Assembly (NCBI GenBank): GCA_029979265.1
Contig: JAPOHW010000004.1
Location: forward strand, 62,001-126,000
Origin: Actinomycetota bacterium
GTDB taxonomy: Bacteria > Actinomycetota > Acidimicrobiia > Acidimicrobiales > Aldehydirespiratoraceae
Reading direction: 5' to 3'
DNA length: 64,000 bases
Shown here one piece after another: positions 10,703 through 58,946 of the stretch. The first letter of the stretch is position 1, and each line of letters begins with the position of its first letter. The position numbers were made by a program, and so were the translations under genes. The notes beneath the pieces were generated by a model, which made no database searches, was not told where the DNA came from, and was given only the letters and a program-made list of their open reading frames with translations.

Positions 10703-11466
10703 GCGACGCCGGACAGTGCCGCCCGCTGGCGGTCGAGCCAACCGAGCAGCACTGCGATCGCTCGGGGATCGTGCCGGAGATGGTGCCGGGCACCCTGCAC
10801 GATCCGGAGATCGGCGGCACCATGTGCGTCGGCGACTGCTCTCGCATCGAAAACCGGCACCGAATCGTCGTCGCTCCCGTGCACGACCAGCAGTTCACGA
10901 GGGGACAGACGCGCCGCTGCTTCAGCCGCTCGCACCGAGCGCAGACCCTCCGACCACGTCTCGAACGATGCCGGGAATCGTTCGTCTCGCACGACACCCA
11001 TTTCTCGGGCCAACAACAACAACTTGCGGGGGTTGCGAGCCCAGTCCTCGAAGTCGGCAGGCGCCGCAACGGCAGCCACCCCACGGATCGATGGATTGGA
11101 TGCGGCCGCCTCGATCGCCAGTGCTCCTCCCGTCCCGAAGCCCATCAAGAACACGGCATCGACATCGACCACGGACCGGAGATGTGCAACAGCCCCGTTC
11201 AAGTCTCGTAGCCAGCCGTTCAGCGAGAAATTTCCCTCCGACTCCCCCACACCACGACTCGAGAATGCGAGGGCAACCCAGTCGTGATTGGCCGCTGCGC
11301 GGTCGGCAAGTTCGGGAAACGTCGCCGTGGAGTTCGCCCCGCCGCCTGCCTCGGCCGGAAAACCGTGAGCGATCACCAACCCGGGCTGGGCACGCTGGCG
11401 GATCTCCGCCGGTACTGCGAGGTGGCAGGCGAGCTGGAGCCCGTCGACCGAGAAACGTTGTTCCAC
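10699..11466 (-). CDS. Alpha/beta-hydrolase-fold protein with atypical nucleophile elbow (GFGTG)
   Basis: 255 residues. The fold is shown by VIAHGFPAEAGGG (oxyanion-loop HG), VALAFSSRGVGESEG (a standard alpha/beta hydrolase strand-turn), LLVVHGSDDDSVPV with the acid, and a C-terminal GARHHLRHD with the histidine. The nucleophile elbow GxSxG reads GFGTGG (LMGFGTGGALAIEAA), so the catalytic Ser position is Gly. It may be a non-hydrolytic or re-wired member; Thr next to it is a possible but unproven substitute. The ATG at 11466 precedes strand 1 (EQRFSVDGLQLACHLAVP) as expected. Confidence 0.78.
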   Translation of the reverse strand: MEQRFSVDGLQLACHLAVPAEIRQRAQPGLVIAHGFPAEAGGGANSTATFPELADRAAANHDWVALAFSSRGVGESEGNFSLNGWLRDLNGAVAHLRSVVDVDAVFLMGFGTGGALAIEAAASNPSIRGVAAVAAPADFEDWARNPRKLLLLAREMGVVRDERFPASFETWSEGLRSVRAAEAAARLSPRELLVVHGSDDDSVPVFDARAVADAHGAADLRIVQGARHHLRHDPRAIAVLLGWLDRQRAALSGVA

Positions 11467-29566: not shown

Positions 29567-29598
29567 GAGTGGGCTCGGGTTGTGTCAGGATGCCCGGC

Positions 29599-31038
29599 AT
29601 GCCTTCGTCAGTTCCGCTTCCCGACGGGCTGGTTGCGGTCGTCAAAGAGGACTGCCCGACCTGCGTGCTCGTCGCGCCAGTGCTCGTCGATCTTGCCGAT
29701 CGATCGTCGATGGTCACCATCACCCAGGACGATCCGACGTTTCCTGCCGACGCCGACTGGGTCGTCCACGATGCCGACCTGTCGTTGTCGTGGCACAACG
29801 ACATCGTCACGGTGCCGACCCTCCTCAGGGTCGAAAACGGCACTCCCGTGGACCGCACGGAAGGGTGGGATCGCAAGGCATGGGAAGCCTTCACCGGCGT
29901 GACCGATCTCGGCCCCGGGCTTCGCGACTGGCAGCCCGGATGCGGCTCGCTCTCGGTCGACCCGAACCTGGCTGACGAACTCGCTGTTCGCTTCTCCGGG
30001 TCGGCGATGACGAGTCGTCGGGTGGAGATCGCAGCGCTGGAGGACGAGTGGGAGGCGATGCACGACCGCGACTGGTCCGACGGTCTCCCGGTCGTACCAC
30101 CCACCGAAGCCCGAGTCCTTCGCATGCTCGAAGGCACCTCCCGAGATCCCGGGGACGTCGTCGCGATCGCTCCACCCGACCTCGTCGAGTGCACGGTGGA
30201 GAAGATCGCCATCAATGCCGTCATGGCCGGCTGCCGACCCGAGTACCTCCCGGTCGTGATCGCCGCCGTCGAAGCGGTCTGCTCCGACGAGTTCAACATG
30301 CACGGAGTGCTGGCAACCACGATGGATGTCGGGCCGATCCTGATCGTGAACGGACCGATCCGCAACGAAATCGAGATGAACTCGGGTGGCAACGTGCTCG
30401 GCCAGGGCAACCGGGCAAACGCCACCATCGGCCGTGCCGTCCAACTGGTGATCCGTAACATCGGTGGCGGGAAGCCGGGAGGCGTCGATCGCTCGGCCCA
30501 TGGCAGCCCCCACAAGTTGGGCCTTGCCTTCGCCGAGGACGAGGAAGGGTCGCCGTGGGAGTCGTTCGCGCAGAGCCGCGGCTTCAGCGCTGAACAGTCG
30601 ACGGTCACTGCCTGGTGTGGCGGTGGTCCGACGATCATGGTCGATCAACTGTCACGCACGCCCGATTCGCTCGTGCGACACTTCGCCAAATCACTCCTCA
30701 CGTCCGTTGCGCCCCGGATGGCGCTGATGGAGACGGTTCTGGTCATCGGCCCAGAACACATGAGCCGCTTCCGTGATGCCGGGTGGGATCGAGCCCGGTT
30801 CGTGGAGGAGCTCGAGACCCATCTGGTGATCCAGACCGACGACATCGTGCGGGGTGTCGACGGTATCGACGAGGGGGCAGCACCGGAGATGGCCGGCAAC
30901 GTGATCTCGAAGTTCTGGCCCGGTGGCATTCACGTCGTGCACGCCGGAGGCCAGACCGGGCTGTTCTCGATGGCATTCGGTGGCTGGATCCCGCCTCCGA
31001 AAGGTAGCGTCTGCACGACGAAGGAGATCACCCGATGA
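29599..31038 (+). CDS. UGSC-partner protein with N-terminal thioredoxin-like domain
   Basis: 479 residues from ATG 29599 (ATG 29590 also possible). Residues about 1-110 are a thioredoxin-like domain: Cys19-Pro-Thr-Cys22 redox motif and a cis-Pro V-P-T at 72-74. Residues about 135-479 are an uncharacterised domain shared with the gene at 57409-58419. Shared landmarks are DGLPVVPPTEARV, CTVEKIAINAVMAGCRPEY, IVNGPIR, GNRANATIGRAVQLV, FAEDEEGSPW and a C-terminal HAGGQTGLFS. I do not know the activity; invariant Cys in CTVEK and MAGC could form a cluster or redox pair. The stop overlaps the UGSC start by 4 nt, so the two are translated together. Confidence 0.72.
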   Translation: MPSSVPLPDGLVAVVKEDCPTCVLVAPVLVDLADRSSMVTITQDDPTFPADADWVVHDADLSLSWHNDIVTVPTLLRVENGTPVDRTEGWDRKAWEAFTGVTDLGPGLRDWQPGCGSLSVDPNLADELAVRFSGSAMTSRRVEIAALEDEWEAMHDRDWSDGLPVVPPTEARVLRMLEGTSRDPGDVVAIAPPDLVECTVEKIAINAVMAGCRPEYLPVVIAAVEAVCSDEFNMHGVLATTMDVGPILIVNGPIRNEIEMNSGGNVLGQGNRANATIGRAVQLVIRNIGGGKPGGVDRSAHGSPHKLGLAFAEDEEGSPWESFAQSRGFSAEQSTVTAWCGGGPTIMVDQLSRTPDSLVRHFAKSLLTSVAPRMALMETVLVIGPEHMSRFRDAGWDRARFVEELETHLVIQTDDIVRGVDGIDEGAAPEMAGNVISKFWPGGIHVVHAGGQTGLFSMAFGGWIPPPKGSVCTTKEITR

Positions 31039-31553
31039 CCACCGTCCTCGATCCAACCAGCGAGTCCCGTGCCGAGCAGCGCGAACTCGTCATCCGACCC
31101 GAATCGCTCGACGGTCTCACGATCGGGCTACTCGACATCTCCAAACCGCGCGGCGATGTCTTCCTCGATCGCATCGAGGAACGTCTCACCTCCATGGGTG
31201 CGTCGGTCAACCGGTACATGAAGCCGACATTCGCAAAGCCCGCTCCCGTCGACCTTCGACATGAGATCGCCACATCGTGCGATGCGGTCATCGAAGCACT
31301 CGCCGATTGAGGCAGCTGCACGACGTGCAGTGTGCACGACATCAGCGACCTTGAACGACGCGGTGTTCCTGGTGTTTTCGTGGCCTCCGAAGGCTTCGTC
31401 GACGCCGCTGAGACCCAGGCCCGAGCGCTGGGCCACCCGAGCGCTCGCGTGTTCACCCCCCATCCCATCCAGGACCGCACCGACGACGAGATGCGAGACA
31501 TCGCCGACGCCACCGTCGACGCCCTGATCGCAAAGCTGACCGGTCCTCAGTAG
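31035..31553 (+). CDS. UGSC-motif selenoprotein A; UGA at 31308-31310 read as Sec
   Basis: 172 residues with Sec92. In-frame TGA-GGC-AGC-TGC gives UGSC, then TTC, so the motif is U-G-S-C-T-T-C, i.e. UxxCxxC (Cys95, Cys98). Before it is a Rossmann-like half (LTIGLLDISKPRGDVFLDRI, EIATSCDAVIEALAD). After it come DLERRGVPGVFVASEGF and FTPHPIQDR, and a natural stop at 31553. UGSC-motif proteins are a known but uncharacterised selenoprotein family from marine metagenomes (from memory). A candidate SECIS loop is 20 nt after the UGA. ATG 31035 has an AAGGAG ribosome site. The second copy at 58416-58946 aligns on both sides of the UGA, which excludes a random frame. Confidence 0.88.
31324..31338 (+). 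promoter_or_regulatory. Candidate SECIS hairpin in UGSC gene A
   Basis: CGTGCA (31324-31329) pairs perfectly with TGCACG (31333-31338) around the loop GTG (31330-31332). The loop G is 20 nt after the UGA. A competing hairpin (31316-31321 with 31325-31330) has its loop only 12 nt from the UGA, so the first is favoured. Confidence 0.6.
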
Positions 31554-57408: not shown

Positions 57409-58419
57409 TCAGGCGCCGGGAATGGCGCAGGCTTGCCCGACGGCCACCTCCCGACTGACGGCGCGGTTGCGATGGCCACCCGCACACCAGGTCGGGAACA
57501 CGTACGAGTAAAGACCGGCCCCACCGGCGGCGACGACGATGACGTCGTCGGCCGAGCCGAATGCCGGTCGACCGTCTCGGGTCTGCGCCCTCGCGGCGAT
57601 CGCGGTGGCGATCGAGCTGCGGTCGTGGCCGGCCGACGCCAGCTCGCCGGCATGGTCGGGGGTGATCACCACCACGGCCTGGCCCCCACCGAGCCAGGCA
57701 TTGTTGGTGCCGGGAGCGGCGAGGGAACCGGCAATGGTGTCGAGCAATCGATTCGATGACTCGGCGACATCGGAACCGGCGGTGTGCGCAACCGACTGGG
57801 GAGGTTCTGTGCCGATCACGGTCACGACTGAGTCGGACATACCGAAACCACGGCTGACATGGAGAGGCAGGAACGGGCTGTGTTCTTCGTCCTCGGCGAG
57901 GCACTGGCCGAACTTGCCACCGTGCCCCAGCAGCGCCATGTCGGAGGTCCCAGGGCGGGCGCCGCCGACATTGACCATGGCGAGGCGGATCGCTCGACCG
58001 ATCGACGCATTCGCCCGATGGCCCGGCCCGAGCGCGCCGTAGCCCGACGCAACGCCACACATCGTGCGAGCGGGCCCGTTCACGATGATCAGCGGGGCGG
58101 TGGCGTGCGTCGTCCCCTGCATCTCGGCGAGGTCGAACGCTGGGTCCATGATCGCCAGTGCCGCCGCGACCACGATGGGCATGTGGTCGGGCAGACAGCC
58201 CGCCATCACCGCGGCAACGGCAAGCTTTTCGACGGTGCAAACGCCGTTGAGTGGACCCATCTCTCCCAACACGACCTCGGCGTCATGACCGACGGCGAGG
58301 ACCATGCGAGCCACTCGCTCCGGTGTGGGGATGACGACGGGAAGACCGTCGGTGCAGCCGAGTTCGTGCAGTCGTTCGAGCGCGGCAGCCTCGTCGTCTG
58401 CCTCGAGCAGGTCGCTCAT
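57409..58419 (-). CDS. UGSC-partner protein (locus B, no thioredoxin domain)
   Basis: 336 residues, the stand-alone form of the domain at 29599-31038. Conserved landmarks: DGLPVVIPTPERV, CTVEKLAVAAVMAGCLPDHMP, LIIVNGPART, GPGHRANASIGRAIRLAMVNVGGARPG, GKFGQCLAEDEEHSPF, and the C-terminal VVAAGGAGLYSYVF. Conserved Cys occur in CTVEK, MAGC and (here only) CGVASG and GQCLAEDEE. No catalytic motif is recognisable. ATG 58419 overlaps the UGSC stop by 4 nt, so UGSC comes first here, the reverse order of locus A. Confidence 0.78.
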   Translation of the reverse strand: MSDLLEADDEAAALERLHELGCTDGLPVVIPTPERVARMVLAVGHDAEVVLGEMGPLNGVCTVEKLAVAAVMAGCLPDHMPIVVAAALAIMDPAFDLAEMQGTTHATAPLIIVNGPARTMCGVASGYGALGPGHRANASIGRAIRLAMVNVGGARPGTSDMALLGHGGKFGQCLAEDEEHSPFLPLHVSRGFGMSDSVVTVIGTEPPQSVAHTAGSDVAESSNRLLDTIAGSLAAPGTNNAWLGGGQAVVVITPDHAGELASAGHDRSSIATAIAARAQTRDGRPAFGSADDVIVVAAGGAGLYSYVFPTWCAGGHRNRAVSREVAVGQACAIPGA

Positions 58420-58946
58420 CGACCCGTCTCGAGTGCCTCGACGATCTCCATCGCCACCTTCTCGGCCACGATGCGATGGTTCTCGGCCCCGGTGCCTGCG
58501 ATGGGATGTGGGAGCCGCACCCGCGGCACGTCGGGCATCCCGAACGAGGTCGCGATGAAGTCTCCCTGAGCCCAGAACTCGTCGGTGACGAGCGCGACGG
58601 CAGGACGTCCTCGCAGGGCCAGGTTGATTGCGTCACGCACGGTGCCGGTGGTGCAACTGCCTCAATGCCCGTACGCCGCGACGACCGCCGAACATGAGCG
58701 TTCGATCTCGCCGAGCATGGCGTCGGAAGCGATCGCCGACGCGTCACCTTTGTCGTAACGACTGAAGCTCACCTCGGGCCGTAGCGCCGCGATGGCATCG
58801 CCGACTGCATCCAGGAACGCCACCGAGTCGGGGAATCCGTTGGCCAACAGCCCCACACTCGTGTCTGCCTCCAGGGCGACGGAGTGGTCGTAGTGGTGCG
58901 GTTCGACTGCGGACCTGCCGCGGGGATCGATGAACTGGACGGCCAT
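58416..58946 (-). CDS. UGSC-motif selenoprotein B; UGA at 58662-58664 read as Sec
   Basis: 176 residues with Sec95 followed by GSC (Cys98) and then T-T-G, so the third Cys of locus A is absent. Upstream: DTSVGLLANGFPDSVAFL and GEIERSCSAVVAAYGH; downstream: RDAINLALRGRPAVALVTDEFWAQG and LPHPIAGTG. Paralog A shares the GLL, SC-AV, U-G-S-C-T-T, RG-P and PHPI elements on both sides of the UGA. The match across the UGA and across two loci is the main reason to read the codon as Sec. The upstream sulfatase gene is 46 bp away on the same strand. Confidence 0.87.
58629..58639 (-). promoter_or_regulatory. Candidate SECIS hairpin in UGSC gene B
   Basis: On the minus strand TGCG-TGA-CGCA: four pairs around a TGA loop that starts 27 nt after the UGA, with G as second loop base. 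The stem is short. An alternative, GCAC (8-11 nt after the UGA) with GTGC (22-25 nt), has a 10-nt loop starting 12 nt after the UGA. This is the weakest of the four candidates. Confidence 0.4.

Follow-up and report, generated by a model that had tools for sequence, protein, structure and literature searches.

The selenocysteine-containing proteins GrdB, GrdF and GrdH (TIGR01917, TIGR01918, PF07355) have around 431 residues and the motif U-G-[ST]-C/G-T-x-C, which is followed by a helix and a 'GIP' strand. PrdB, the small subunit of D-proline reductase, carries its selenocysteine in a UxxC motif, and its activity needs a dithiol. The gene clusters of glycine, sarcosine and betaine reductases contain trxB and trxA (PMC6778437, PMC4517662). 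UGSC proteins were described from marine metagenomes in a 2008 survey, which gives no function for the family, regards a thioredoxin fold as probable and notes a fusion of UGSC with a domain called Unknown_1 (PMC2398784). UGSC genes and a UAG-reading tRNASec have also been reported from Geodermatophilaceae (PMC5330540).

The window, the whole stretch of 64,000 nucleotides that was analysed, contains two UGSC genes, each overlapping the gene of a partner protein (Table 1). The product of the first is a member of the UGSC family (NF041046, PF24696), with which it shares the profile score, the Sec motif and the UGA codon. When the UGA is read through, the protein matches PF24696 over positions 1-171/172 (E 3e-46, 158.1 bits against a cut-off of 25) and NF041046 over positions 1-146/147 (156.8 bits against a curated cut-off of 125). 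These matches span the whole protein, and thus the homology extends to both sides of the UGA, as an earlier note on this DNA had read from the translation. The frame holds a single in-frame TGA, within ALADUGSCTTCSVHD, and ends with TAG at 31551-31553. The partner gene starts with ATG at 29599 (alternatively GTG at 29569) and ends with TGA at 31036-31038, which gives the ATGA overlap described in the same note. This module stands alone, with a flavin reductase/MBL pair on one side and an HhH-GPD DNA glycosylase on the other. The UGSC family was previously known without a function, and the earlier listing (PMC2398784) is extended here by a near-obligate partner family, a predicted flavodoxin-like fold, an RNA element and a separate thioredoxin supply. 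A hitherto anonymous selenoprotein can thereby be tested as an enzyme.

Table 1. Features of the two UGSC modules in the window
Feature	Position	Strand	Evidence
Partner gene, 479 aa, N-terminal thioredoxin domain and UGSC-partner domain	29599..31038	+	AF2 model, pLDDT 92.4; homologues
Thioredoxin-like domain, partner residues 1-101	29599..29901	+	Fold Z 8.7, E 2e-4, CxTC and cis-Pro
CPTC motif, Cys19 and Cys22 of partner	29653..29664	+	C19, T21 and C22 invariant in 56/56 domain-bearing homologues
UGSC-partner domain, no named family	30019..31032	+	Invariant E201, C212, R272, R279, N287, D297, K306, E313, H387
ATGA overlap, partner stop/UGSC start (ATG 31035)	31035..31038	+	
UGSC selenoprotein gene, 172 aa	31035..31553	+	Translation; PF24696 and NF041046 profiles; AF2 model
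In-frame UGA, predicted Sec92	31308..31310	+	Translation; UGA in nearly all homologues, UAG in Blastococcus
Cys95 to Cys98	31317..31328	+	Cys95 in nearly all homologues; Cys98 marks the thioredoxin-linked branch
Bacterial-SECIS-like hairpin inside the coding sequence	31322..31340	+	Synonymous-codon constraint
Partner of second UGSC, 336 aa, without thioredoxin domain, overlaps UGSC stop	57409..58419	-	
Second UGSC selenoprotein, paralogue, UGSCTTG	58416..58946	-	UGA at 58664-58662

Selenocysteine at UGA codon 92 is well supported by sequence comparison. The source genome encodes SelB (283 bits over cut-off) and a tRNASec (64 bits, anticodon TCA, that is UCA), and almost all UGSC matches in related genomes contain exactly one TGA. 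In Blastococcus the Sec codon is TAG, for example at 11287-11289 of locus L049 from Blastococcus massiliensis, which fits the UAG-reading tRNASec reported for Geodermatophilaceae (PMC5330540). A sequencing error or a pseudogene was rejected because the UGA is kept in nearly all homologues, the codons behind it are frozen and Blastococcus uses UAG.

Across 72 orthologues from several phyla, the choice among synonymous codons departs from near-background levels only at positions +4 to +10 behind the UGA. The fixed or nearly fixed codons of this stretch are ACG (54/65), TCG (63/65), AGT (62/62, against a background frequency of 6%), GTG (46/46) and GAC (68/71). The constrained bases form a hairpin whose apical loop, GUG, starts 19 nt after the UGA; 95% of the pair cells are formed in 40 sequences, and the lower stem of the copy at 31322-31340 contains a single mismatch. 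Covariation is weak: both bases change in a single pair only, and of 500 shuffles 58 reach the score. The claim of an RNA element therefore rests on the codon constraint. The bacterial SECIS element is a stem-loop just 3' of the UGA with a G in its apical loop, and the hairpin has both features. An Rfam scan of the module region returned nothing relevant.

Of 80 loci, 7 have selA and selB immediately next to the module; two arrangements occur, and the loci come from both Actinomycetota and Pseudomonadota. Such neighbours would suit a selenium-handling factor, for example one that delivers reduced selenium to selenophosphate synthesis, a role made very improbable by the Cys forms of UGSC on haloarchaeal plasmids and by the several paralogues per genome that lie inside catabolic clusters. 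Public annotation splits a Paracoccus UGSC gene at the UGA (L208, 6381-6950), and the same split is seen on an Acidovorax IncP plasmid (L212, 6464 onward), where a UGSC-partner fusion is unannotated past the UGA.

The earlier note had described the two genes as a module, and their distribution bears this out. In the order sample both families occur in 87 of 149 relatives, neither in 59 and one alone in 3, and the copy numbers correlate among carriers (r 0.94). The phylum sample of 396 genomes gives carrier sets of 28 and 29, with 27 genomes common to both. A partner gene lies within 400 nt of 125 of the 136 UGSC matches, and the five partner-fetched loci that lack a neighbouring UGSC belong to genomes with UGSC at another place. 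The linkage is therefore near-obligate and the gene pair is a module; the earlier note had named UGSC genes lacking any such linkage as one observation that would count against its reading, and a near-universal linkage was found instead.

The source genome holds four modules, at 29599-31553 and 57409-58946 (minus strand) of the window and on contigs C83 and C25. In the C83 module an aminomethyltransferase-like gene of the GcvT/DmdA type is placed between partner and UGSC (L005, 4679-8163), an arrangement also present in loci L170 and L171, while in the C25 module UGSC and partner are one polypeptide. Natural fusions of the two are also found on Acidovorax, Variovorax, Vibrio and Sporomusa plasmids. 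The Unknown_1 domain named in the 2008 survey (PMC2398784) may be the same partner. A type-1 module is also present in Pseudonocardia bannensis DSM 45300 (L073), and Natrinema zhouii has a Cys form. Haloarchaeal plasmids (L206, L216, L217, L221) carry partner-UGSC-partner triplets, in which one Cys-type UGSC lies between two diverged partner genes, a hint that the partner may be heteromeric. No partner homologue was found in phage records.

The first 101 residues of the partner have the thioredoxin fold (best Z 8.7 in structure comparison of the model, 85 aligned residues, 2.8 Å), and a PDB sequence search with the partner matches thioredoxins only (E 2e-4). CxTC is present in 56/56 homologues that keep this domain and cis-proline in 57/57 that cover its position, so fold, CxxC and cis-Pro are all those of thioredoxin. 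The domain differs from thioredoxin in its D-C-P-T-C sequence without the usual Trp, and in being fused to or encoded beside the partner. The remaining 340 residues have no Pfam or NCBIfam match in the window protein, its paralogues or 60 homologues, in agreement with the earlier description of a CPTC thioredoxin-like domain joined to an unassigned conserved one. Searches with the full-length partner model gave no convincing fold match for the C-terminal domain; the top Foldseek match, to class I fumarase (E 4e-3, TM 0.22, rmsd 17 Å), was taken as chance. Profile comparison does not relate the partner to GrdE or GrdB, the GrdE profile aligning over 41 columns with a probability of 8%. Its large set of invariant polar residues is as expected of a substrate-binding enzyme.

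The AF2 model of UGSC (pLDDT 93, pTM 0.87) is made of five alternating β-α units and does not have the βαβαββα order of the thioredoxin fold. A (βα)5 flavodoxin-like fold is thus predicted, instead of the thioredoxin-like fold suggested in the 2008 survey (PMC2398784). In the model Sec92 opens the helix after strand 3, and the conserved residues Lys37, Lys63 and His143 come after strands 1, 2 and 5. The ends after these three strands are the usual active edge of flavodoxin-like sheets. The structural neighbours, namely a chain of the methyl-coenzyme M reductase activation complex (Z 12.5), flavodoxins and receiver domains, were set aside as sharing the common fold only, and a PDB sequence search with UGSC gave no match.

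The relationship to GrdB is probable and distant, the resemblance being weak but consistent and centred on the Sec motif, and it does not amount to membership. TIGR01917 (GrdB) is matched by 40 of 52 UGSC members (best E 3e-6), the GrdF model by 39 and the wider GrdB/PrdB subfamily by 21 of the same 52. For the window protein the GrdB match is local, covering residues 78-125 around the Sec motif, and its 18.8 bits are far below the cut-off of 602.2. Profile alignment with hhalign pairs C/U92 of UGSC with the Sec of acidimicrobial GrdB, and the same helix and 'GIP' strand follow; local profile tests on shallow alignments (E 0.01-1) are weaker than the curated NCBIfam model. TIGR04483 (PrdB) is weakly matched by 2/52 members, below its cut-off (best E 0.036), and no pyruvoyl proprotein partner was recognised at UGSC, although UGSC shares with PrdB the UxxC Sec motif and a small size. 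The predicted UGSC fold is compatible with the C-terminal domain of GrdB; a fold unrelated to reductase Sec subunits, with no interface between the two proteins, was the second observation that the earlier note had named against its reading. The tie to reductase Sec subunits suspected in the earlier note is therefore retained as a distant one, Sec on Sec, while UGSC lies outside the GrdB and PrdB families and its partner is unrelated to GrdE. The source genome also has short PF07355 (GrdB/PrdB-like) matches at G000:C18:277982-278389 and C26:25301-25516, and loci L166-L169 of related genomes encode short proteins resembling PrdB, whose Sec motif is UPVC.

The UxxCxxC motif, in turn, holds only in part. 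UxxC with Sec is well supported, while the third Cys is restricted to a thioredoxin-linked branch and is not general to UGSC, paralogues reading UGSCTSW, UGSCTTG and UGSCTPA. It is present where a thioredoxin is fused to or encoded in the module; otherwise the position is occupied by Trp, Gly, Ala, Tyr, Phe or Ser. In the tree the third Cys appears at three separate places: a thioredoxin-fused clade of 29 rows from several phyla (support 100/99), Arthrobacter and Roseovarius. The Arthrobacter plasmid has the order trxB-trxA-partner-UGSC and the Roseovarius plasmid partner-UGSC-trxB, and in loci L044, L068 and L113 a separate thioredoxin gene lies just upstream of the partner. Variovorax SRS16 is an exception, with trxB upstream of or near the module, yet Ala in place of the third Cys. 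These trxB and trxA genes mirror the glycine reductase clusters (PMC6778437). Thioredoxin, the probable electron source, is thus found in fused, separate and operon forms, so that the fusion in the window is no longer the sole clue to it. Cys98 may communicate directly with thioredoxin.

A thioredoxin domain would also serve a peroxidase or repair reductase that depends on a thiol or selenol. Sec92 and Cys95 would then act on peroxides or oxidised metabolites as the reductant, with the partner as a dedicated adaptor or a second redox subunit. The mostly stand-alone position of the type-1 loci, without catabolic neighbours, and the presumed aerobic hosts are in line with this role, but the fold predicted for UGSC is not that of a peroxiredoxin or glutathione peroxidase, the invariant polar set of the partner is as expected of a substrate-binding enzyme, and paralogues have acyl-CoA dehydrogenase, enoyl-CoA hydratase, SDR, amidohydrolase or RidA genes as neighbours in catabolic clusters. 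Such a role is consequently regarded as unlikely.

The near-constant partner and the module's own thioredoxin suggest instead a widespread thioredoxin-powered selenium enzyme. By analogy with glycine and D-proline reductases, UGSC and its partner are probably the two subunits of a selenoenzyme reductase that receives its electrons from thioredoxin. Support comes from the pairing, the recurrent thioredoxin, the third Cys that tracks thioredoxin genes, the Sec evidence and the resemblance to GrdB. In this reductase the partner domain would bind the substrate through its invariant residues, E201 to H387 with C212 among them (Table 1), and Sec92 would attack the bound substrate at a carbon-heteroatom or heteroatom-heteroatom bond. 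Cys95 would resolve the adduct as a selenylsulfide; in the thioredoxin-linked branch Cys98 would relay the oxidation to the fused thioredoxin at its CPTC motif, and thioredoxin reductase would recharge this thioredoxin from NADPH. Of the thioredoxin-fed selenoenzyme first proposed for this locus, the module, the Sec site, the thioredoxin source and a distant tie to GrdB-type Sec subunits are supported, while binding of the two proteins and a reductive reaction are predicted.

Paralogous modules sit with genes of short-chain dehydrogenases, enoyl-CoA hydratases, acyl-CoA dehydrogenases and GcvT-like proteins, and further with amidohydrolase, RidA, Rieske oxygenase and CoA-transferase genes, a setting that suggests one chemistry in several versions, each specific for its own substrate. 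Those without the thioredoxin domain or third Cys may act on other substrates in catabolic clusters with a general reductant. A wider proposal, advanced only tentatively, is that UGSC and partner are a separate class of two-subunit thioredoxin-driven selenoenzyme. In mostly aerobic bacteria this class would correspond to the glycine and D-proline reductases of clostridia, and it would have an unnamed family of substrate-binding subunits and several substrate-specific paralogous modules per genome. If they are reductases, selenium-dependent reductive cleavage would be far commoner outside anaerobic clostridia than thought and would sit in catabolic clusters, some of them on conjugative plasmids. 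The reductase interpretation is weakened by the weak GrdB similarity, by Variovorax SRS16, by certain fusions that lack the motif and by the hosts: most carriers are presumed aerobes, and glycine-reductase-type chemistry is not usual in aerobes.

The fusions in question, from Vibrio (L209, 6365-8050) and Sporomusa (L214, 7320-9044), have MGTS in place of UGSC and adjoin genes for aconitase X and DUF126. The redox pair is therefore not needed there, and the fusions, apparently a branch that lost its redox residues, argue for caution. Together with the weak fumarase match (E 4e-3), they would agree with a partner domain that itself catalyses a non-redox reaction, as a lyase, transferase or isomerase, and with UGSC as a binding or regulatory subunit whose Sec or Cys is used only sometimes. 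This is rather improbable: an alignment of 52 orthologues shows U/C-G-S-C without exception, nearly all sampled bacteria retain Sec although it costs them the Sec machinery, and thioredoxin genes recur at module loci. Haloarchaea, which are not known to use Sec, carry Cys forms of UGSC on plasmids, and some of these forms are flanked by partner genes on both sides. The Acidovorax copy (L212) lies near IS1071 on a conjugative plasmid.
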